DNA of 64,000 nucleotides from Clostridium sp. (lineage in GTDB: Bacteria; Bacillota; Clostridia; Oscillospirales; Acutalibacteraceae). The notes beneath the pieces are model-generated. The model was not told the DNA's origin, did not search any database, and saw only the letters and a program-made list of their open reading frames with translations. Position 1 is the first letter of the stretch; every line of letters begins with the position of its first letter. The translations under genes were made by a program, and so were the position numbers. Location: positions 1 to 64,000 of the forward strand of contig JAISSW010000010.1 in assembly GCA_031272895.1 (NCBI GenBank), in the 5' to 3' direction. Of this stretch, positions 1,688 to 64,000 are shown in pieces.

Positions 1688-4501
1688 AAGCAGCTCGCTT
1701 GCCACATCGGCATTCTCAAAGCGCATAATGCTTGCCTCAGGGGAACTGTAGCCCAGCAGGCTTACGCTGCCGTACCACACCGTTTTGCGGTCAAGCACGG
1801 CGGCGTTTTGGTGTATGCCGTCGCTCAAAAACACCTGTATTCCGTAGGAACGCAGCCCATCAATCAGCGCCGCTTCAACGGAATTTGGCGGGGCGGGGCG
1901 GGTCAGTATGCTTATGCTTACACCGTTTATCCTTGCGGCGGACAGGGTTTTGAGCAGCTTATCAATACTGCCGCGCTTCAATTTTGGGGAAAGAATAACA
2001 ATTTCACGCTTGGTGCTGCAAATATCGCGGGCAAAGTGAGCCCAAAATTCGGTGCCGTCAAATAAGCTGTTTTCGGCGCTTTTTGTGCCGCCGGTCACCA
2101 ATGCGCGGTAGCCCTGCTCCCTGTATGCTTTAATGCGCTTGTGGAACATAGCCCCAAGAATTGCGACGGACATATCCACATAATCAAAAATCATTACGTT
2201 TTTTTTGCCCGGAGTAGCCCTGTGCAGCCGACCGGCGTATTGCTGCAGCGTGCCGTGCCAGGCAACGGGTGACGCAAGAAAAAGCGAGTCAAGACGCGGC
2301 TCGTCAAAGCCCTCGCCAACAAACTGCCCGGTGGCGACCACCGCAAACTGCCCGTCCTGCGGGACTGAGCGCAGCCGCTCCAAAGCCTCGCGCTTTTGCT
2401 TTGCGCCGGCCTTGCCGGTCAGCCGAATAACCTGCGGGCAAAAATCCTCAATAGCCCCCGCAAGAGAATCAACCTGCGCCGTCAAGCGGGTCAGCACAAG
2501 CGGAATGCGGCCGTTTTGCATTGCGCGCCTCACGTCCTTAATAATCAGCTCGTTGCGCTTTGGGTCCGCCGCAAGCTGATTATAAAGCTCAGTTATATTA
2601 AGGGATTTTTCGTCAACAAAGTCCGGCAGACGGAATTGAGTGAAACGCGGGATTACAAAGCGGTCGTAGCCCGCCGCCTGTGCCTGCGCCAAGGCATTGA
2701 CACGATAACGAATGGGTCCGCACTGCATGAAAATAATCGGCTGCAAACCGTCCTTGCGTGCCGGTGTTGCGCTAAGGCCGTAAATATAGCGTGCCCTCAC
2801 CTGCCGCAAAACCCTTTCAAAGCTCACTGCGGAAACATGGTGGCACTCGTCCGCTATCACAAGCCCGTAATCACCCGGCAGCTCGTTGCCGCCCGTCAGC
2901 GATTGCATTACGGCAATGTCAACCACACCGTGCAGCTCATCCCTGCCGCCGCCAAGCCTGCCGATAAGTGACAGCTTCTTCTTGCGCCCGGATTTGCCAA
3001 GCTCAACGGGCAACTCCTCGTCGATTTCCAAAAACTGCTCAAGCGCTTTTTTCCACTGCTCCATTAGCGCCGTTGTGTGGACTAAAATCAGCGTGTTTCG
3101 CTTAAGAGAGGCAATCAAATACGCCGCCAAAACGGTTTTTCCAAAGGCAGTTGTTGCCGCCAGCACGCCGTTCTCGTGTTCAAGCATGGCATTTGCCGCC
3201 GGTATCTGCTCAGGGCGCAGGACTCCGGCAAATTCAGCCTTAAGCTCCCGTCCAAGGCTGCGTTTATCGTCAATGGCGTAGTTAACGCACGCTGTGTCAA
3301 GCAGCTCCCGCAGGGCAGCCTCACAGCCCCGCGGCAGGCTAAGCGTTTCGCGCGTTTCGCGGGAGCAATCAACTACCCGCGGCAAATCACGCGTGGGAAG
3401 GCGCTTGCGCTCCGCCATAGCAAATTCCGGGTTGAGGAAGGCGGCTAAGCGCCGCAGCGTGTTAAGCGCCTGCTGGGAAAGCCCCGCCTTTGGAATGTGG
3501 AGCATATTGGTCAGAGTAATGACTGTTTTTTCGGGGAAATCCAGCGGAGCAAGTGATTTTTTTTGCTTGCCGAACAGCCAAGGGGCGTCCTCTTCCTCCT
3601 CCCGAGCCTGAAAGAAATCGCCCATTGTGCCGCCTCCGCGCTTGACGACAGCGTCGATTTGGGCGTGCGTCAGCTTTTTTATGCCGGATAAATAGCTCCA
3701 TTGGTCGGAATAGGGGAGCAGCTCCTCGTCAACAAAAACACTTTTGCCCTGCCGACGTGCCAAGCCCTGCAGCGGCAGGGCCACGGGAGTGCCGAAAAAG
3801 CCGTGCGGCGCCGAGTCACTGCTTGGCGTTATGTGGTCATATAGCTCAAAGGGCAGCTCGTGGCGCAGAGCCATTGCGTCGGTCAGTATGGCGCTGACGA
3901 AGCTGCGGGCAAGCGCCGCCGGTACCCGCTCCTCAAAGAAGAACCAGGCGCGGGCGCTGTTTTCCCCGCTGCGCTCAACCGCCGGGCTAAGCCCGTTTTG
4001 CTCGCAAACACTGCGGAAGACCGCCAAATCCTCGCGCCAGGCGGGTTCAAAAAAGCTCAGCGCCGCAAAATAGCAGCTGTCGTCGCTCATCAGCGGGTAG
4101 AGCTGAATTATGTCGGAGCCATCGGGGCTTTTTCCGCTCAGATGGCGAAAAAAAGCGCTGCTGTCGGGCGGCACAAAGCGTCGGGAGGGGCAGTATTGGC
4201 ACTTGTATTTTTTTTTGTCGCAAACCCCGCGCGACCATTCATTAAGGCAAACGGGGGAAAAGCCGCTCTTGCCGTTATTGGCGTTATGCCACTGCTTTGC
4301 GAACACATCCTCCCGCCCGCGGAAGAGCTGCATAAACAGCGCCAGCTTTTGGTTTGACGGGCTTTTTTGGCACAGGCTGCCAACAGAGCCGTCACCCTTG
4401 CCGACCTTGCAGCCCAGCGCCGCCTTAAGCCTCTCGTTCTCGGCGCGCAGTCCGTCCAAGGTGCTTTTCAGGCTGTCATAGCTTTCCCCGTCCATCATCA
4501 A
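1673..4501 (-). CDS. TOTE-type archaeo-eukaryotic primase-like domain fused to SF2 helicase, with C-terminal PLD-like domain
   Basis: 942 aa; N-term LFMQLFRGREDVFAKQWHNANNGKSGFSPVCLNEW...ALPLQGLARRQGKSVFVDE; helicase ATTAFGKT / VIADECHH / SATPARKDG / QYAGRLHR; C-term HQNAAVLDRKTVWYGSVSLLGYSS PLD-like HxK/D-type segment. Confidence 0.8.
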   Translation of the reverse strand: MMMDGESYDSLKSTLDGLRAENERLKAALGCKVGKGDGSVGSLCQKSPSNQKLALFMQLFRGREDVFAKQWHNANNGKSGFSPVCLNEWSRGVCDKKKYKCQYCPSRRFVPPDSSAFFRHLSGKSPDGSDIIQLYPLMSDDSCYFAALSFFEPAWREDLAVFRSVCEQNGLSPAVERSGENSARAWFFFEERVPAALARSFVSAILTDAMALRHELPFELYDHITPSSDSAPHGFFGTPVALPLQGLARRQGKSVFVDEELLPYSDQWSYLSGIKKLTHAQIDAVVKRGGGTMGDFFQAREEEEDAPWLFGKQKKSLAPLDFPEKTVITLTNMLHIPKAGLSQQALNTLRRLAAFLNPEFAMAERKRLPTRDLPRVVDCSRETRETLSLPRGCEAALRELLDTACVNYAIDDKRSLGRELKAEFAGVLRPEQIPAANAMLEHENGVLAATTAFGKTVLAAYLIASLKRNTLILVHTTALMEQWKKALEQFLEIDEELPVELGKSGRKKKLSLIGRLGGGRDELHGVVDIAVMQSLTGGNELPGDYGLVIADECHHVSAVSFERVLRQVRARYIYGLSATPARKDGLQPIIFMQCGPIRYRVNALAQAQAAGYDRFVIPRFTQFRLPDFVDEKSLNITELYNQLAADPKRNELIIKDVRRAMQNGRIPLVLTRLTAQVDSLAGAIEDFCPQVIRLTGKAGAKQKREALERLRSVPQDGQFAVVATGQFVGEGFDEPRLDSLFLASPVAWHGTLQQYAGRLHRATPGKKNVMIFDYVDMSVAILGAMFHKRIKAYREQGYRALVTGGTKSAENSLFDGTEFWAHFARDICSTKREIVILSPKLKRGSIDKLLKTLSAARINGVSISILTRPAPPNSVEAALIDGLRSYGIQVFLSDGIHQNAAVLDRKTVWYGSVSLLGYSSPEASIMRFENADVASELLSTGK

Positions 4502-48834: not shown

Positions 48835-51800
48835 TTAACGGGACTGCTTTCGCCTTGGCTTTTTAGCTTCTCTCAGCCTGTGCTTGCCGGCGGTGAACCT
48901 GTCAAAAACCGCAAGCAAGGCCGGCAGGATAAACAGAATCAGCAGCACGGAGCTTAAAACACCCATTGCCAGCGTTCGGCAAATCTGCCCTGAAACCGGG
49001 TCGTCGAAGCAGTAGCCCAAGCTGCCCATTGCAAGCACCATAAGCAGACCGGAGGTCAATATGGTGTGCATGGAGCCTTCATAAGCCATTGCGATTGATT
49101 CCCGAACGCCGTGACTGCGGCGGCTTTCGCGGTAATAGTTGGTGAAGAGTATGCCGTAGTCAATCGTCGCGCCCATCAATATGGCCTGCACAATCAGCAG
49201 CACAAGGTAGTATATACTAAAGCCCTGCAGCCCTATTACGGACACGGTAATAAACACGCCGCACTGCACAATCAGCACCAGCACAAGCGGCACAAAAAAG
49301 CTGCGGAAGCTAATGAGCACAATCAAGAATATTGCCAGAGCCGTCAGCACGCTGATTGTAAGCAGCTCACGGTCAAAATCGCCCTCAATCTCAAAGTTCA
49401 TCGCCGAGGAGCCGATTAGGTAATAGCGCCCCGTCAGCCCGGTTTTCAGCTTACTCGTCAGCTCGGAGAGGAAGCTTGTTGTTTCGTCTGATTCAAGCGG
49501 CAGGGTGGTGGTTAATATCAGCCGCGAGTAATTTTGCCCGCGCAGCTGCTTTACTCCGTCCTCCAGCTGAGCCTTGTAGCCGCTAATATCCGCCCTCATT
49601 TTTTCATCAATTAACCCGGTGAAGCGCGGGTCGTCAAGCAGACCGCCGGAAAGGCTGTCAAACAGCGCCTGTACGGATAGCGTTGCGTTTGGGTCGCCGT
49701 TATAAATGCTCGCGTGGTAAAGGTAAACCAGCTCCGCCATGGCTTGCTCAAAATCCGTGCCGAAGCCCCGGAGCAGGCTGCCAATCTGCTCCGCCGTCAG
49801 GGGAGTTTCAGCAACAACGGTATCAATCAGCCTTGCGGCGTTTTTTAGCTGAGCCGCGTCGCTTTCGCTGAAGCGGGAGGACATAGACGGGTCTGTCAGC
49901 ACGCTTGAGGCAACAAAATTAACAAAGTCCTGTGCGCTGATTTTCCAGCCGCTTGTGTCACCGTGCCGCAGGGTATAAAGCAGGTACAACCCGCGCATAT
50001 CACTCTTGTCCATACCAAGCAGCGCCGCCATATCCTCTGAGCTGTAGGAGCTGCCCGAAAGTGTGGCGTTGACAATTTTCCGTGCCGTCAGCAGCTGCTC
50101 CAGGTCCTGCGTGCCGCCCATAAGCTCTCCAAGCTGTTCGCTGCCCGCCGCAAGGGAATCCAGCACGGAGCGCAGCGAAAGCCGCCAAGAGTCGGCGTCA
50201 GTTTTTGCCGCGCCGTAGGTATAGAGCATTTTCACCAAAGACGGCTCCAGCCCAAGCAGGGTCGCCGTTTCGCTATAACCCCGCTTTGCTCCCAGCAGGA
50301 TTTCGCCCAAGGGGTTGTTCAAAATCAGTGCCGCGGCGTTTAGCTGCGCCAGCATGGAGGAGTCAATGTATTGCGAAAAGCTTGGGTTGTCAACAATGTC
50401 GTTGCGTATTAAAGTCACAAAATCCGGCAGGGATAGCTCCGGCGGCTCGTATTCGGCATTCTGTGAATAAGCGAACACATACATCAGCCTTGCCATTTCA
50501 GCGTCAACACCCAACAGCTCGCCCATTTCCCCGTAGCCTATTTGCGCCGTGACCCGCTCCTTGTCCGTAAGGACTTTCAGCTGTTCCAGGCGCGCAAGCA
50601 TTTCGCCGTCAAGCATGGCGGAGTATTCGGCATCTGCGGCCACCTCGTCCTTCAAAAAGCCCGCAAGGGTAGGCAGGCTCATTTTTACGCTGCCACCGCC
50701 GCCGTTTTTTGTGTAGTAATAAAGCAGCAGCTGCTTGGCCTCACTTTCGTCCATGCCGAAGAATTCAGCAAGCCCCGCCGCGTCAAGCGGGGCGGTAAGG
50801 GAGGCCTTGCTGCCAAAGCGGCGGAGCTGCTCCAACTGTGCCTTAAGCTCTTGACTGATGTAGGCGGAGAAGCTTGGGTTAGGCGCCAGCTCGTCGGCCA
50901 CAAAGCGGATAAACTCGCCGGCGCTCATCGCCGGGGCTTCTTCGCCCTTGTGGTAGTAATCATAATAGAGTATGCCAAGCATGGAGGAGTCAAGCTTAAG
51001 CTCCAAGCCCATGCTTTTAATAAAGCTTGTCAGCTCCTCCGGGCTGTATTGCTTGCCGATTGTTGTGGAGTAGCTGATTGCGCTTTTTACCTCCGGCTTT
51101 TCCTCAAGCTCGGCGGCAAGAGCCGTAACCTCCGGGTCGTCAAGGTTGTCGTACAGCAAAACCATTGTGTTTTCCGGAACAAAAACCTCCGCAATGGGGT
51201 CGTTCTGTGCGTAGGAATACGCCGTTTTTGTGTGACCCTGCAAAAACGTTGCGGTAATGAACAACGCAACAAACAGCCCCGCCAGCACCCAACGCAAACG
51301 AAAAATGCCGGAGGACAGCTTCTTTGTGGGAATGTGCAGCTGACGCTTTTTGGTTGACCTTTCCAGCAGCCTTGAAAAAATCAATATCAGCGCGGGCAGG
51401 ATTGTGAAAACGCAAAGCAGGCTGAAGAATACGCCCTTTGCCAGCACAATACCCATGTCAAAACCGATTTTGAAGCGCATAAGCAGCAAAATCAGCAGCC
51501 CAACAATGGTGGTAAAAGCGCTGCTTAAAATGGAAACGAAAGCATTTTTCATCGCGCGCCGCATTGCCAAGGGCTTGTCGTCTGTTTGGCTAAGCTCCTG
51601 CCTGTATCGGTTCATCAGAATTATGGAATAATCCATGGAGAGAACAATCTGCAGCGCCGCCGCCGTGGTGAAGGTAATGTTGGAAATCTCGCCCAAAATA
51701 ATGTTCGACCCAAAGTTAATAATCACCGCGCAGCCGATTGTAAACAGGAATAAAAACGGCTCCGCCCAAGAGGCGCACATAACCAGCAGTATAACCAGCA

Positions 51801-52296
51801 CAACCAGCACCGCAAGGGCAAGCACCCAGGTGGGTATGCCCGGCGGGGTACTGTCGTCATTGCGCAGCACCATGTTGTAGTCTGCGAATTGTGAGCTGAT
51901 TGCGTTTTCAAGGGCCTTTTCCTCCGCGGAGGCATAGGCAAAGCTTGTGTGAACCACAAAAAGTGTGTGGTTATCCTTGTTGTAGTCGGCGCTGCCCGCT
52001 TCATAATCCACACCGGAGGCGTTCGGAAGAGCGGCAAGTCCCGCCTTAATCCCCGCAGCTTCCCCGGTGGGCAGGTCGTCGAACATAACGCGGATATTCT
52101 GCGTCGTGCCGGTTTCACCGAATTCCTCGTTCATAAGCTCAAGTCCCGCCCTCATTGAGGAATCGTCCGGCAGGTACTTGGTCATGTCCGAATTTATGCC
52201 CACCATCGGGTAAAGCACCGCGCAAACCGCTGTGAACACAAGCATCAGCGCCATTATAATTATTTGGAATGTTTTGAATTTGGATTTGTTTCTCAT
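48835..52296 (-). CDS. MMPL/RND-family exporter with large repeat-containing extracytoplasmic domain
   Basis: 1153 aa; two TM bundles; TTAAALQIVLSMDYSIILMNRYRQEL and MGATIDYGILFTNYYRESR motifs. Confidence 0.9.
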   Translation of the reverse strand: MRNKSKFKTFQIIIMALMLVFTAVCAVLYPMVGINSDMTKYLPDDSSMRAGLELMNEEFGETGTTQNIRVMFDDLPTGEAAGIKAGLAALPNASGVDYEAGSADYNKDNHTLFVVHTSFAYASAEEKALENAISSQFADYNMVLRNDDSTPPGIPTWVLALAVLVVLVILLVMCASWAEPFLFLFTIGCAVIINFGSNIILGEISNITFTTAAALQIVLSMDYSIILMNRYRQELSQTDDKPLAMRRAMKNAFVSILSSAFTTIVGLLILLLMRFKIGFDMGIVLAKGVFFSLLCVFTILPALILIFSRLLERSTKKRQLHIPTKKLSSGIFRLRWVLAGLFVALFITATFLQGHTKTAYSYAQNDPIAEVFVPENTMVLLYDNLDDPEVTALAAELEEKPEVKSAISYSTTIGKQYSPEELTSFIKSMGLELKLDSSMLGILYYDYYHKGEEAPAMSAGEFIRFVADELAPNPSFSAYISQELKAQLEQLRRFGSKASLTAPLDAAGLAEFFGMDESEAKQLLLYYYTKNGGGGSVKMSLPTLAGFLKDEVAADAEYSAMLDGEMLARLEQLKVLTDKERVTAQIGYGEMGELLGVDAEMARLMYVFAYSQNAEYEPPELSLPDFVTLIRNDIVDNPSFSQYIDSSMLAQLNAAALILNNPLGEILLGAKRGYSETATLLGLEPSLVKMLYTYGAAKTDADSWRLSLRSVLDSLAAGSEQLGELMGGTQDLEQLLTARKIVNATLSGSSYSSEDMAALLGMDKSDMRGLYLLYTLRHGDTSGWKISAQDFVNFVASSVLTDPSMSSRFSESDAAQLKNAARLIDTVVAETPLTAEQIGSLLRGFGTDFEQAMAELVYLYHASIYNGDPNATLSVQALFDSLSGGLLDDPRFTGLIDEKMRADISGYKAQLEDGVKQLRGQNYSRLILTTTLPLESDETTSFLSELTSKLKTGLTGRYYLIGSSAMNFEIEGDFDRELLTISVLTALAIFLIVLISFRSFFVPLVLVLIVQCGVFITVSVIGLQGFSIYYLVLLIVQAILMGATIDYGILFTNYYRESRRSHGVRESIAMAYEGSMHTILTSGLLMVLAMGSLGYCFDDPVSGQICRTLAMGVLSSVLLILFILPALLAVFDRFTAGKHRLREAKKPRRKQSR

Positions 52297-57457: not shown

Positions 57458-57486
57458 TTGACAATCGCTTTCTAATGCTGTAGAAT
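57458..57486 (+). promoter_or_regulatory. Promoter TTGACA-N17-TAGAAT upstream of giant ORF
   Basis: Perfect -35, near-perfect -10, 17-nt spacer. Confidence 0.7.
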
Positions 57487-57687
57487 AAATCCGTATAGTT
57501 GCGCCCTCACACTACCCACACAAAAGTGTCACAAAGAGGGAAATACAGAGCCGAGAGGAAAAACATCACAACCAAAGGCGGTTTGCGCAAGGCGGGTCAG
57601 GTCAGGGCACGCGGAGCGTGGAGGCAAGCGCCGTGCAGAATCGGTTCATCGCAAGAGAATGAATGACATTAAGGAGTTGGTTTTTCC

Positions 57688-60600
57688 ATGTTAGCAAGAA
57701 ACATTAAGCGAATTATCCAAAAGACACGGATTCCCGCCAGACGCACGCTGAGCAGCGTGTTGGCATTTGTAATGATGCTCTCGGCGGTTGTTGTGGCGCT
57801 GCCGTTAATGGCGACGTTTATGGCGACGCTGGTTGTCAGCACCGCCGGCACAGCCGACGCGGCAAACGCCTACGGTACTGGCGTTGCGGGCATTAACGCC
57901 GCCATTAACAATGGCGACAACTACCGCGCGGCGGAGCTGTTGCCAAGCGTTTTTTTGGTTGGCGACACAAAAGGTTCGTTCACCGGGAGAGCGCAGACAT
58001 CAACCATGAGCAACCCGCGGCAGTTTAACCTCACTAATACGGTTTATGGTATTAGTTGCACCCACAAAGAAATTTATGAGTGGCTGACAGCTAAGGCTAT
58101 ACCTACCTCACTAATAACAGCTGTTACGGAGGATGTCGGAGCAACGCGAACCGAATACAGGAGTGACGGCACGGTTCTGGAAACGGTTCAGAACGTAATC
58201 CTTGACCAAGAGCCCTCGAGCGGTTCGGTCATTAAGGGCTTTGCAACCTCGCGTGCACTGCTCTATAATGACACTCGAGGTTGGAGAGGAATAACTGCGA
58301 CGCTGTCTTACGGCACTTCAGGTCAGGCTTGGTATACAAACATAACCTTAACCGGCTCGTTTTCCCCAGATGATGCCAATTTTCATACAAGCGATCCGAT
58401 CACCAATACCCAGAACTATAGCCGCAGTGTTGGCAAAGCCATTGAGGAATACGACACATGGGATGACCTGCCGGCAAGCATTGGTGTGGAAGGAAAGCTT
58501 ACGATAACCCACACGCGTGAACGCGGCAATTTGCGGGTACAGGGCGTTAGGGCGAGCAACGACTTGACAGCGTCTTCTACAAACTACGACATTACATCAG
58601 GCGTTTATCTGCGTTCTAACGATGGCAGTGCAAGCACAGGAGAATATGGAACAATCGTCCGCGCTTACTCGGACTACCTCAGCGGGCTGAGCTTCACCAC
58701 AACCAAATCTGTGGACATTAAGTCCGTGCTCAACACCTGGCGCAACAGCTCCTGGATCGGTATAAACACCACGGTTGAAAAGCTCGTTGAGCAGTTCAAC
58801 CTTGATTGGTTGGACATAATGTATGCCGGCGCTGGTAATATGTGGGACACCCAAAAGGCTATTTGCATTGGGCGGCTTGAAGAGCTTGGCATGACCAACA
58901 GCGAGGCGGTTGCCGTTTGGGATAAATACATTGAGGACGACGCGCAAGACGGCTACAAAAAAGCCTGGATGAAAAAGGTTGACGCGGCAATCGCCGTGCA
59001 CGAAGCCCTGAACGATTTGGATAAATTCTTCGTTCCGTCCGAAAACCTTAACCCCGCGGGCAGCGACCCGAACAGCGGCCTTTGGTACGGCGGCTACTAC
59101 GCCGGCCCGACCAACACCTTCCGAGACGGCGGCGCCGCTTACACCGCGGCACAGGCGCTCGCGAAGGCAAACGCAATTGCAGCAGACCAAGCTGCCGGCG
59201 GCGCGCACCTCCTTAACAAGCTGGACCGCAACGGCGACGGCGTGGTAACCTCCGCTGACCTGTGGAGTATGTATAACACGGCAGTGACCGCCTTGGACGC
59301 GGCAATTAAGGTGAGGGACGCAACAATCCCCACATCTACCGATACGGCGTCCTCCGGCAAAAGTATGCTGTGGTTCATTAACGAGTATATCGACGGCAAC
59401 CTGAACGGCGGCGAAAACTATGGGCCTGTCGGCGCGGTGCCGGGCAAGGCTGCAGGCGTTAGTTATAAGAACGGAATTGGCTACGCAAGAGCCGATTATG
59501 CGGATATTAACGCTTCCAACATAGCCGATATCAGATGGGAACCCGCCGTGTGGACTTACAACGTCAAGGCAGTCTATGCGTTTATGTCTTGGGCGGAGAG
59601 CAAGAAAGTTATCATTGACTTCTCCACCGGCAACTACGGCTTAATCGGCGACTTCCACGTCGGCGCAAACGTTGACGACGACGGCAACAGCCCGTGGAAC
59701 ACCGACATCGCCGGAATTGACCCCTGGGACATCAACCTTGCGGACGGCTTGGACTCCGGCGAGGAAGCCCAGCTCAACGTGGCGTACAGCTACAAAAACA
59801 ACCCCGCGGACCCGGGCTACGACAGCTCCAAGGCTGACGTGCTTTACTCCACGGTGCAAATAATCACGTTGATGGATTATGCTTTCAGCTATAAAACCGT
59901 TGCGGATATGCTGAAGTCAATGTTAACCCCAGATGTGTTCGCCGTCGAGTTCCCCGATTACGACAAATTGGTGGACGTTTACGACGCACTCTCCGACGAA
60001 TACACCTACCGTATCAACATCTTTAACGATATTCTCGGTCTTGCGGAAAAGAACATCAACAAAATCCTTGGTTATGAGCCTCAGTGGTATGTCTACCGCA
60101 ACTGGTTCAAGGATAACATCACCGCTCCCGCGGACCTTACCGATCTTTCTGTTTCCCAACTGGCTACCCTGTTCGGCAAACTGAAGGATAAGTACGCAGA
60201 GTACAAGGATTACGAGGCAAAGGCGTGGGTAAACACGGACGAAGATGACCCCGCGTACGGCAAGGGCTTGCACGAGCTTGACCGCGACTCGTGGTGGGAT
60301 GAAATCTTTAAGATGGCTATCCCCATGACTGTGCCGGCGGACCCGCGCAACGGCACAACCGTTCCTGAGTACAACTGGGGCAAGGCGGTTCCTTCCGTCG
60401 CAATCGACAACACCGGCTTTGAGCTGGCGGGTCGTCTGCAAACCCAGGTTGAAGCCGCAATGAAGAAGTATGAGAGCTACTCCTTACAGAATATGCTTGT
60501 GTGGGTTGCGGGGCAAGAGGGCAAAACGCTCTCCCGCGATACCACAAGCGCGGTTGCTAACTATGCCCGCGCATATGCGGTTTACTCCATGGTTTCCCAG

Positions 60601-63600
60601 GATATTATCGGTAACTTCGCCACCGAAGCGGAAGCAATTAGATACCTCAACAACACATATGTGCTGCCGCTGCAAAGCATCAACCCCGCTGTGCCGATGT
60701 ATGACAACAGCATTTACACCGGCTCAAACTACTCAAGCTGCGCCGGCGAGGGCTACACAAACGGGCGTTCCGCAATCGGCGACTACCTCTTTATAGTCAA
60801 CGTGCTGGGCAAGTACGTCAAGGAATTCCAGGCAGACCCCGTTTGGTCCAAAACAGAGTGGTACAAGAACGGCACACAAATCACCGGTACATACGTCACC
60901 CGTTACGGTGATACCGTCAACCTGCCCTCCAGCGACCCGAGCGCGGTCACAGGTCAGGACGTGGCGCGTACCACGAACGAAGACTACACAGTCACCGGCG
61001 CACAGCTCAAATCCCTGCTTGACGCGCTCGACAGCATGCTCGGCAGCGAAGGCGACCTCAGCGACATTCTCAATGCCGTGGGGCTTGACCTTAGCAGCCT
61101 CGGCTTGGGTGTTTCGGGAAAAGTCAACGCGGAAACCGTTATCAACGCGGCTGTCAATAACTACCTTTACAGCAACGAAATCGTCAACACAATAGTCAGC
61201 CTGCTTTACGGCTTGGTGCTGCCAATGTTCGAGAACGTGTTCGCGGGCTTCTCCAACATGGAACTGCCGGCTGAGCTGACAAACACCACTTTCCTTAAAA
61301 TTTACTCACTGCACACCCTGCTTGCCAACAAGGGCTCCGACTCCTTGGAAAAAAACGTTTACTATATTCCTTCGGAAAATGGTGGAAGCGACGGTAACAT
61401 ACAAAATCGTCACGGCGAGAGCAACCACAATGGTATTTCCGACCTTAAGCTCTACCCTGACCTGTTGGGCAAGGCTGTTAAGGAGTATGCTGCGGCAAAC
61501 GGCTTGACCACAACATTCCAGAACGCGGTCAGCCAGCTCATGAACCCCACAAGCTACAAAACGGAAGACGTTGGTTCAGGCGCTATCAACATTGACGAGC
61601 CACTGGTGAAGTGGGGCGCGGGCGGCGGAGCAAAGCCCACGACAGGCTACACCTACAACGTGGACACCTGGCGTGACCCGTCCATCTTCCGACCGACCGT
61701 TAACCCGGACGGCACAATCAGCTACGAATACAAGACGGACTCCAACGGCGCGTACATCAAGTCCGGCAGCGCGGACGACCCCGCGACGCTGTATCGGGAT
61801 GAATCCCTCGTACAGGACACCACAAAGCCTGTCGGCTCGCTGTACATCGACTGGGGAATCAACAGCTTGACCGGCACTGCCCGCGCAACGCAGTTCAAAA
61901 CGGCAGTCGGCGCGGCGCTTTCCGGTATCTATCCCTTGCTGCAGGCGCTACTGCTCGGCATAGACTACGTTGGCTTTAACCCCAAGGTGGGCTACCTTTC
62001 AGGAACTACCTTAGACGATATTCTGGGAGATAGCAGTAACCCGTATCCAACAGGTTGGTACTACTATGGCGGCAATAATATTCCTATCATTGTGCCGACC
62101 ATATACCTCAAACTCACTGCTGATGGCAACGAAGGCTTTGGTAAACTTGTTACCCCAATTTTGGAGCTTCTGGCAGGCTTGACCACTGGCACCGACTCGG
62201 TCTATGACGCAATACCAACAGTAGACTATCTGAAAACACTGACCTACACTAAGCCAACCAAAACTCCATTGCGCAAGGACCAGGTTGACCTTGACCAAGA
62301 CTGGGTTACTGCGGGAACTGGCACAAGAAAGCGAAACGTTGCTCACTTCGGAGGCTTCTATCTAACGCAAGCAAATATTGAAGAGAGCAAAACCACCTAT
62401 GGCGTAAGCTGCTATGGTGATGCCACTTACTGGGACACAGGCGTTCCAATGGATCAGTACGACTACACCTATAGTGCGGCGGATACAGTTGACAAGAGCG
62501 TCAAGTTTGTTAACGCTCTGTTCAAACCCATTGACGCGTTCATTGACGTGGTTGGACAAAAGCCCTTGCAGGAAATCCTGCGCATTATTCCCAACATTTC
62601 CTACGCGCTCAGCCTCGACCGCATTTCCTCGCTGCTTGAGGGTGCGCTCAAAACCACCATCACCCCGGAGGTAAATGGTTTGGTTCAATTGGGTACACCA
62701 CGCGGCTCTTGTTCTGATTTCGATACCAGCAAACTTTTGGGCGATATGCCTAACGGCGCGCTCACCGGTGGTTCAACTTTCGATACCGGCAACAAAAACG
62801 GCAACACACAGTGGAAACGCAAGACAGGTTCACCTAGCCACAGTCTGTTCATGTATGCGCAGGTTCAGATAGGGTGGGGGCTTATAGATGGCACTAAAGA
62901 CGGCACAAACGGCAAAAATGACCCGGACCCCAACCTCAGTACTGGCCACATGGAGGTCGCCAACCTTGTTGGCGCAATGGACGCCATAGAGGTGGACGTC
63001 TTCGGTATGCTTGACCTTGCCAGCCTGGGTGTCGATGCCTACCTCAAGGCAGGCTCAATAGAGAACCTGCTGCTGGGCATCATGCCCGATGCGGCGGCGT
63101 ACCTACCCAGCGACATACTCGACATGACCTTGGGCACCTACGGTCCGGTCAAGTCCTACTCAGCCATTCCGCAAAAGCGCTCCTCCTCGGTTCAGGTGCG
63201 CAACTATGTGGATACTGAGGTCTACAACCTCTTCTACGGTATCCTGCGCTCCGTGCTTAACCCCAGCACCATGGGCAAGTTCGGTCTTAACCTTGGTAAC
63301 TTCGACACCGGCACGGCAATCGCCGCCCTTATGGAGCTGCATTCACCGTATGGCAACAACACGGGCGAACCTGCCGACGGCTACGCCATGAAGGCGATTG
63401 ACTACGGCACAAGCACCGTTGTTTACAACCCGTTTGAGTTCCGCGACGCACACTTCAGCAAGGACGAGGCGGAGCGCGTAATCAATAAGATTATCGCGGC
63501 ACTTACCGGCGGCGTGTTCTTCGACCTTGACGGCATGATTGAAACCCTGCTGGGCGAGAACGTCTACAACAACGCTACGTTCGACCTTGTTGTCAACCTC

Positions 63601-64000
63601 CTGCTCAGCTACATTGGACCGGACGGGCAATTCAGCGATATTCTCAGCATGGTAACCGGCATTGTGCCTGAGCTTGCCGGTATCCTTGAGAAGTATTCAG
63701 ATAAGTATGTACCCGCAACCTACAAGAAGGTTGAGGCGAAGTACTATACCTACAAGCTCAACGCGGCGCAAACAGCGGGTGAGTACGCGGGCGAGTACAC
63801 CAAGAGTGAAGTCCTCCCGGACGGCTATGTGTTCAAGGAATCCGGACTGGAGGACGACCCGGCGACGCCTTACATTGACGAGAGCTTGGTCTGCACTAAC
63901 CCGACCCTTGCCGGCACGGACACCGCTGTTACTGATGAGGATGAGCACCCCGGTGAAGCGTGGAACTTCACCACCGCTGGCGACCCGCAGTACCCCAACT
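57688..64000 (+). CDS. Giant secreted protein of unknown function (at least 2104 aa, truncated by window end)
   Basis: ATG 57688, RBS AAGGAG upstream; frame 1 read codon by codon to 63999 with no stop; signal peptide/TM RRTLSSVLAFVMMLSAVVVALPLMATFMATLVVSTAGTADAANA. Confidence 0.9.
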   Translation, partial: MLARNIKRIIQKTRIPARRTLSSVLAFVMMLSAVVVALPLMATFMATLVVSTAGTADAANAYGTGVAGINAAINNGDNYRAAELLPSVFLVGDTKGSFTGRAQTSTMSNPRQFNLTNTVYGISCTHKEIYEWLTAKAIPTSLITAVTEDVGATRTEYRSDGTVLETVQNVILDQEPSSGSVIKGFATSRALLYNDTRGWRGITATLSYGTSGQAWYTNITLTGSFSPDDANFHTSDPITNTQNYSRSVGKAIEEYDTWDDLPASIGVEGKLTITHTRERGNLRVQGVRASNDLTASSTNYDITSGVYLRSNDGSASTGEYGTIVRAYSDYLSGLSFTTTKSVDIKSVLNTWRNSSWIGINTTVEKLVEQFNLDWLDIMYAGAGNMWDTQKAICIGRLEELGMTNSEAVAVWDKYIEDDAQDGYKKAWMKKVDAAIAVHEALNDLDKFFVPSENLNPAGSDPNSGLWYGGYYAGPTNTFRDGGAAYTAAQALAKANAIAADQAAGGAHLLNKLDRNGDGVVTSADLWSMYNTAVTALDAAIKVRDATIPTSTDTASSGKSMLWFINEYIDGNLNGGENYGPVGAVPGKAAGVSYKNGIGYARADYADINASNIADIRWEPAVWTYNVKAVYAFMSWAESKKVIIDFSTGNYGLIGDFHVGANVDDDGNSPWNTDIAGIDPWDINLADGLDSGEEAQLNVAYSYKNNPADPGYDSSKADVLYSTVQIITLMDYAFSYKTVADMLKSMLTPDVFAVEFPDYDKLVDVYDALSDEYTYRINIFNDILGLAEKNINKILGYEPQWYVYRNWFKDNITAPADLTDLSVSQLATLFGKLKDKYAEYKDYEAKAWVNTDEDDPAYGKGLHELDRDSWWDEIFKMAIPMTVPADPRNGTTVPEYNWGKAVPSVAIDNTGFELAGRLQTQVEAAMKKYESYSLQNMLVWVAGQEGKTLSRDTTSAVANYARAYAVYSMVSQDIIGNFATEAEAIRYLNNTYVLPLQSINPAVPMYDNSIYTGSNYSSCAGEGYTNGRSAIGDYLFIVNVLGKYVKEFQADPVWSKTEWYKNGTQITGTYVTRYGDTVNLPSSDPSAVTGQDVARTTNEDYTVTGAQLKSLLDALDSMLGSEGDLSDILNAVGLDLSSLGLGVSGKVNAETVINAAVNNYLYSNEIVNTIVSLLYGLVLPMFENVFAGFSNMELPAELTNTTFLKIYSLHTLLANKGSDSLEKNVYYIPSENGGSDGNIQNRHGESNHNGISDLKLYPDLLGKAVKEYAAANGLTTTFQNAVSQLMNPTSYKTEDVGSGAINIDEPLVKWGAGGGAKPTTGYTYNVDTWRDPSIFRPTVNPDGTISYEYKTDSNGAYIKSGSADDPATLYRDESLVQDTTKPVGSLYIDWGINSLTGTARATQFKTAVGAALSGIYPLLQALLLGIDYVGFNPKVGYLSGTTLDDILGDSSNPYPTGWYYYGGNNIPIIVPTIYLKLTADGNEGFGKLVTPILELLAGLTTGTDSVYDAIPTVDYLKTLTYTKPTKTPLRKDQVDLDQDWVTAGTGTRKRNVAHFGGFYLTQANIEESKTTYGVSCYGDATYWDTGVPMDQYDYTYSAADTVDKSVKFVNALFKPIDAFIDVVGQKPLQEILRIIPNISYALSLDRISSLLEGALKTTITPEVNGLVQLGTPRGSCSDFDTSKLLGDMPNGALTGGSTFDTGNKNGNTQWKRKTGSPSHSLFMYAQVQIGWGLIDGTKDGTNGKNDPDPNLSTGHMEVANLVGAMDAIEVDVFGMLDLASLGVDAYLKAGSIENLLLGIMPDAAAYLPSDILDMTLGTYGPVKSYSAIPQKRSSSVQVRNYVDTEVYNLFYGILRSVLNPSTMGKFGLNLGNFDTGTAIAALMELHSPYGNNTGEPADGYAMKAIDYGTSTVVYNPFEFRDAHFSKDEAERVINKIIAALTGGVFFDLDGMIETLLGENVYNNATFDLVVNLLLSYIGPDGQFSDILSMVTGIVPELAGILEKYSDKYVPATYKKVEAKYYTYKLNAAQTAGEYAGEYTKSEVLPDGYVFKESGLEDDPATPYIDESLVCTNPTLAGTDTAVTDEDEHPGEAWNFTTAGDPQYPN

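Follow-up and report, generated by a model that had tools for sequence, protein, structure and literature searches.

Large repeat adhesins of Gram-positive bacteria carry a signal peptide and Ig-like or serine-rich tandem repeats in variable copy number. In envelope systems of the FtsEX-PcsB/EnvC and MacB types, for their part, an FtsX-family ABC transporter is paired with an extracytoplasmic partner. Giant surface proteins are also known as a kind, for example in the insect-associated bacterium Apilactobacillus kunkeei, whose Giant1 to Giant5 are exported proteins of 3,000 to 8,000 aa (PMC12863079). In Giant1 to Giant3, alpha-helical repeats of a type not described before are predicted to build a rod, and attachment through the C terminus has been proposed for the A. 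kunkeei giants, which also show an N-terminal beta-solenoid (Giant1 to Giant4) and a C-terminal SH3b-like domain and are encoded in one five-gene cluster (PMC12863079).

The 64,000-nucleotide stretch analyzed here (the window) constitutes the first 64 kb of a 98,037-bp contig (G000:C6), in a genome of 1.30 Mb and 16 contigs that is 86% complete. The initial annotation had described a reading frame starting at ATG 57688 and staying open to the window end, for a product of at least 2104 aa, and 2,104 codons without a stop were indeed observed in frame 1. When the frame was read on in its own contig, as had been advised, the stop was reached at contig position 70656, yielding a protein of 4,322 aa with a computed mass of ∼469 kDa and a pI of 4.2. 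A stop just past position 64000 in a product devoid of anchor or secretion features was therefore not what was found, the stop lying 6.7 kb further on and the tail of the protein being conserved. A chance origin of the frame was dismissed because of its length. The promoter, a strong one, and the ribosome-binding site that had been assigned to the gene were both recovered (Table 1), with two promoter-type sites found in the 600 bp scanned versus 0.7 expected.

Table 1. Features of the giant gene and of its product (nucleotide positions in the window)
Feature	Position	Strand	Residues	Remarks
Sigma-A/70-type promoter	57458..57486	+		TTGACA-17-TAGAAT, 11/12 consensus bases
Shine-Dalgarno sequence AAGGAG	57671..57676	+		11 nt 5' of the ATG; read directly
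Giant gene, 5' half	57688..64000	+	1-2104	Whole ORF, G000:C6:57688-70656
Putative N-terminal export signal	57688..57864	+	1-59	Long hydrophobic core preceded by a basic n-region; TADAANA as the AxA-like site
Fast-evolving N-terminal region	57865..60732	+	60-1015	Orthologue comparison
EF-hand/dockerin-like calcium-loop sequence DRNGDGVVTSAD	59224..59259	+	513-524	Sub-threshold (EF-hand_5, E 0.08)
Region common to the giant and the 2,503-aa paralogue	60733..61881	+	1016-1398	Sequence comparison
Degenerate, insert-bearing ∼380-aa repeat	61882..63657	+	1399-1990	Profile match in three pieces
Five full repeats past the window		+	2118-2547, 2583-3012, 3055-3461, 3482-3878, 3929-4286	Iterated profile search

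No conserved operon was found around the giant gene. Among the orthologous loci, only two upstream neighbours recurred, namely, QueT in G001 and an SDR dehydrogenase in G002, while 3' of the gene in its contig there is what we take, going by the ORF sequences, to be a ZnuA/C/B-like zinc uptake operon. No RNA families were detected within the window by Rfam. Elsewhere in the window (48835-52296, minus strand), a 1,153-aa MMPL/RND-like membrane protein is encoded, with helical repeats such as LLGMDKSDMRGLYLLY between its membrane halves.

The signal peptide-like N terminus noted initially is of the kind expected of LPXTG adhesins, with its n-region, its AxA-like site and a core (residues 24-42) that reached a Kyte-Doolittle value of 2.61 over 19 residues. 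The hydrophobic segments that had been quoted are present in the sequence. Since those outside the signal peptide peak at Kyte-Doolittle values of only 1.6 to 2.0, they look like buried amphipathic helices and not like membrane spans. The protein ends in an amphipathic tail, GFIQFWLTIVAWFKKLFGFFFPWA, whose motif GFIxFFxxIxxFFKKIF is kept across genera; the helical hydrophobic moment of this tail was 0.41 to 0.42 in the two proteins of this genome and 0.59 to 0.81 in the others tested. Similar tails terminate other ORFs in related genomes, so the tail behaves as a separate, modular unit, and these Clostridia may be using it generally to retain proteins at the surface, as a module not described before. 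Tails such as NFFEKIIAFFRSIIDFFKNLF end the frames at L092, L093, L095, L099 and L102 (genomes G213 and G001), which range from 159 to 6,367 aa. The longest, the 6,367-aa open frame of L099 (G213:C33, near 126237), may represent a giant protein of another kind.

Sortase anchoring of the giant was rejected. The genome holds eight sortase matches, though no [LNSVI]PxTG motif is present in the last 200 residues of the giant, whose tail is an amphipathic helix. Nor was there any Pfam match to an SLH or wall-binding domain, the other C-terminal anchors proposed for inspection. Searches with Pfam, NCBIfam and PHROGs returned only sub-threshold matches, such as that to EF-hand_5. There was no clear full-length match to a characterized family, no adhesin or Ig-like repeat domain at the Pfam/NCBIfam cut-off and, in agreement with the initial annotation, no standard enzymatic domain among the Pfam matches.

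Compared by description, the window giant resembles the A. kunkeei giants in its thousands of residues, its putative export signal and its repeats, modelled as mainly alpha-helical; however, its gene stands alone, its tail is an amphipathic helix, and Pfam detected neither a beta-solenoid nor an SH3b-like domain in it. With the Gram-positive repeat adhesins it shares the signal, tandem repeats that vary in number, a surface location and a variable distal end, whereas its repeats are alpha-rich instead of Ig-like or serine-rich and LPXTG is lacking. No accessory SecA2/SecY2 genes were seen beside it.

A mostly helical domain of ∼380 residues recurs in tandem in the giant, in five good copies and a degenerate one. 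These repeats had been missed initially because they lie beyond the window, as do the paralogue, the wider family and the association of small relatives with an ABC transporter. The paralogue, of 2,503 aa, is encoded on contig C7 of the same genome and shows 24 to 34% identity over aligned blocks, the signal peptide being left out of this figure. Located 84 bp downstream of it on the same strand (L005, 2868-3806, minus) is the gene for a 312-aa membrane protein, which in our view resembles a prolipoprotein diacylglyceryl transferase; similar proteins sit upstream of a relative in G001 (L037).

To define the range of the domain, a profile built from 37 repeats was run against samples of 300 to 400 genomes each. 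Within the same family it matched 48 of 300 genomes, which belong to 21 of 135 genera, with over a hundred repeat matches in those 48 genomes. The class-wide sample gave two marginal matches only (E values of 6e-4 and 8e-4), and the phylum-wide sample gave none. In the genomes sampled, the domain would thus be confined to one family and essentially absent otherwise. The repeat had no match in Pfam or NCBIfam, nothing significant in PHROGs and nothing among PDB sequences by profile search, and our literature searches returned no account of the repeat or of the amphipathic tail. The domain, its single-family range, its size series and its transporter link appear to be new, as far as the libraries searched are concerned. 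Named genus mates are "Oscillospiraceae bacterium" metagenome-assembled genomes (MAGs), one of them from Gsp477, a sample of the termite Glyptotermes (PMC11707648), and the named relatives as a whole are Oscillospiraceae or Clostridia MAGs.

Sizes within the family differed widely. The smallest members, of ∼850 aa, contain two repeats, usually with a membrane anchor, the orthologue of the giant in G002 contains six, and the largest members reach 10,494 aa with 18 repeats and 10,638 aa with 19. Relatives sharing the repeats end in a transmembrane (TM) segment plus KKK, in VPTGD...RKKKHA or in NVDTGD...RKKKEK, and some carry accessory surface-type domains (GLUG and, in one relative, Big_2). One member (L036, G001:C99, 6838-13965) is broken by stops into several frames, probably through gene decay or faulty assembly.

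The closest orthologue, from a sister species, aligned over 3,999 residues with 57.7% identity, and pN/pS ranged from 0.24 to 0.66 per 400-residue block; on such comparisons the giant gene is judged to be real and under constraint. Identity was 37 to 40% over residues 1 to 800 and 54% over residues 801 to 1200. Conservation rose from the N to the C terminus in independent orthologue pairs, from 37% to 76% in the giant pair and from 41% to 92% in the pair of 10.5-kaa proteins. This gradient and the TM/basic or TGD...RKKK ends of the relatives suggest that the C terminus is placed at the cell, with the variable N terminus pointing outward. When 33 repeats were placed in a tree, those of the giant each paired with the same-position repeat of its orthologue. 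The first full and the last repeats clustered with units of the shorter paralogue, while the middle repeats formed a clade of their own, plus one extra in a third species. The same-position pairing and the middle clade point to old internal duplications, and not recent slippage, as the source of the long form.

As only the degenerate copy falls inside the window, two AlphaFold models were built on the sister-species orthologue (L053). The model of one repeat (27 rows) reached a pLDDT of 72.8 and a pTM of 0.55, and that of two repeats plus the tail (11 rows) a pLDDT of 65.4 and a pTM of 0.51. Both moderate models show a domain that is helical for the most part and has short hairpins. A Foldseek comparison with the PDB, of the type advised at the outset, matched no solved fold (best E value of 0.47). 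Since the models are only moderate, no shape is claimed from them; the stalk would presumably be elongated.

Taking these data together, we lean, with some reserve, towards the giant being a C-terminally held surface stalk made of a new domain and bearing a variable tip, likeliest for attachment or recognition. An extracytoplasmic location at the cell surface is well supported by sequence features, because the N terminus is signal-like and relatives end in a TM helix and a positive tail. The exported protein would be fixed to the cell surface through its C terminus, the amphipathic tail presumably keeping it at the membrane; approximately six copies of the ∼380-residue alpha-helical domain would form the elongated stalk, which would present outward the variable N-terminal region of ∼1,000 residues. 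With this tip the cell would most likely attach to, or recognize, the surfaces of the gut, particles of food, protists or cells nearby, an adhesive role being the likeliest one, and stalk length would have been gained by internal repeat duplication, with the first and last units fixed. The export-like signal, the repeats and their varying number, the conserved tail, the N-to-C gradient, the positional orthology of the repeats and the surface-type ends and accessory domains of the relatives are in concordance with the stalk. Counting against it are the lack of any recognized adhesin or wall-binding domain, the moderate quality of the models (pLDDT of 73 and 65) and the association of the simplest member, a widespread one, with an ABC transporter and not with adhesion. 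The tail is, moreover, a putative anchor, and the giant could be released instead of held. The earlier proposal of a surface or extracellular structural protein of gut Clostridia thus stands as regards its location outside the cytoplasm and its gut-clostridial origin, a structural role being conjectural.

The genomic context of the two-repeat form was different from that of the giant. In loci picked by the repeat, the two-repeat gene lay directly 5' of a gene for an ∼915-aa ABC_tran+FtsX protein in 9 of 12 cases, mostly with a gap within ∼15 bp or an overlap, and a MarR or TetR regulator often preceded the pair. In loci picked by the transporter, it was immediately upstream in all five evaluable cases, the sixth contig ending too soon. 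It directly preceded the gene of one FtsX/MacB-type ABC subfamily in 14/14 testable transporter loci. Operons with this arrangement, comprising the regulator, the two-repeat membrane protein and the ABC transporter, were observed in six genera (L111, L112, L114, L115, L116, L059-L066 and L068). A search for a phage or plasmid from which the two-repeat form might have come found none. At a threshold of 690 bits or more, the repeat-linked ABC subfamily was present in 15 of 300 genomes, all 15 of them among the 48 repeat-bearing ones; hypergeometric values for this co-occurrence were 1.4e-13 by genome and 7e-6 by genus (6/6 genera), although they overstate independence, since the genomes are related.

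Because the two-repeat form precedes the ABC gene in every testable transporter locus, the original role of the domain was probably that of an envelope partner to this FtsX/MacB-type ABC transporter, and in this adjacency the two-repeat relatives resemble the partners in FtsEX-PcsB/EnvC- and MacB-type systems, although Pfam matched the repeat domain to none of the known partners. A less likely alternative, though one of some weight, would extend this role to the giants: the repeat would be a transporter-partner domain, the two-repeat, membrane-anchored form serving an FtsX/MacB-type ABC transporter, controlled by MarR or TetR, that moves or senses a hydrophobic or peptide compound at the envelope and the giants being enlarged forms by which compounds of this sort are bound or scavenged extracellularly. 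The adjacency in both samplings, the restriction of the subfamily to repeat-bearing genomes and the strong hydrophobicity of the helices would be in agreement with it. However, adjacency and co-occurrence characterize the two-repeat relatives and not the giant, which has no ABC-FtsX neighbour at its orthologous loci and is thus not directly explained. The cognate subfamily is absent from the window genome and its genus mates, the only relative in the former scoring 362 bits and standing alone (L117, 4972-7650 reverse complement, G000:C1). Since the giant's genus lacks the subfamily, the transporter link bears on the origin of the domain and not directly on the giant.

That the giant acts on other cells, as a contact-dependent weapon or as a host or protist effector in which the repeats are a delivery scaffold for an active N terminus, seems improbable. 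The variable N terminus, the paralogues and the restriction to one gut-bacterial family would fit such a role, but Pfam detected no catalytic, nuclease or pore-forming domain, no neighbour resembled an immunity gene, and the neighbours (QueT, SDR and the zinc ABC transporter) look like housekeeping genes. An assembly or gene-calling artefact, which the single MAG contig and the incomplete genome might bring to mind, is hardly credible given the protein-level constraint, the paralogue, the many repeat matches and the sister-species MAGs carrying the same gene with shared neighbours.

The surface stalk is retained as the preferred reading of the giant. A broader proposal, which we put forward only tentatively, is that a single extracytoplasmic domain, not described before and confined to one family of gut Clostridia, works in two size classes. 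In the small class, two membrane-anchored copies would be the partner of an FtsX-type ABC transporter; in the large class, the domain would be the unit of surface fibres reaching 10,600 residues, kept at the membrane by a new, transferable amphipathic C-terminal tail that unrelated surface proteins would use as well. Giant proteins of bacteria are poorly understood, and here their growth can be tested directly within one bacterial family, from a two-copy form of ∼850 aa to a 19-copy form of 10,600 residues. Some of the largest ORFs of these gut genomes are built from the domain, which is nevertheless missing from Pfam and NCBIfam as searched here. The operon tie of its small form to an ABC transporter offers a concrete experimental way in to what the domain does, and surface retention by the transferable amphipathic tail may be a mechanism that has gone unrecognized.
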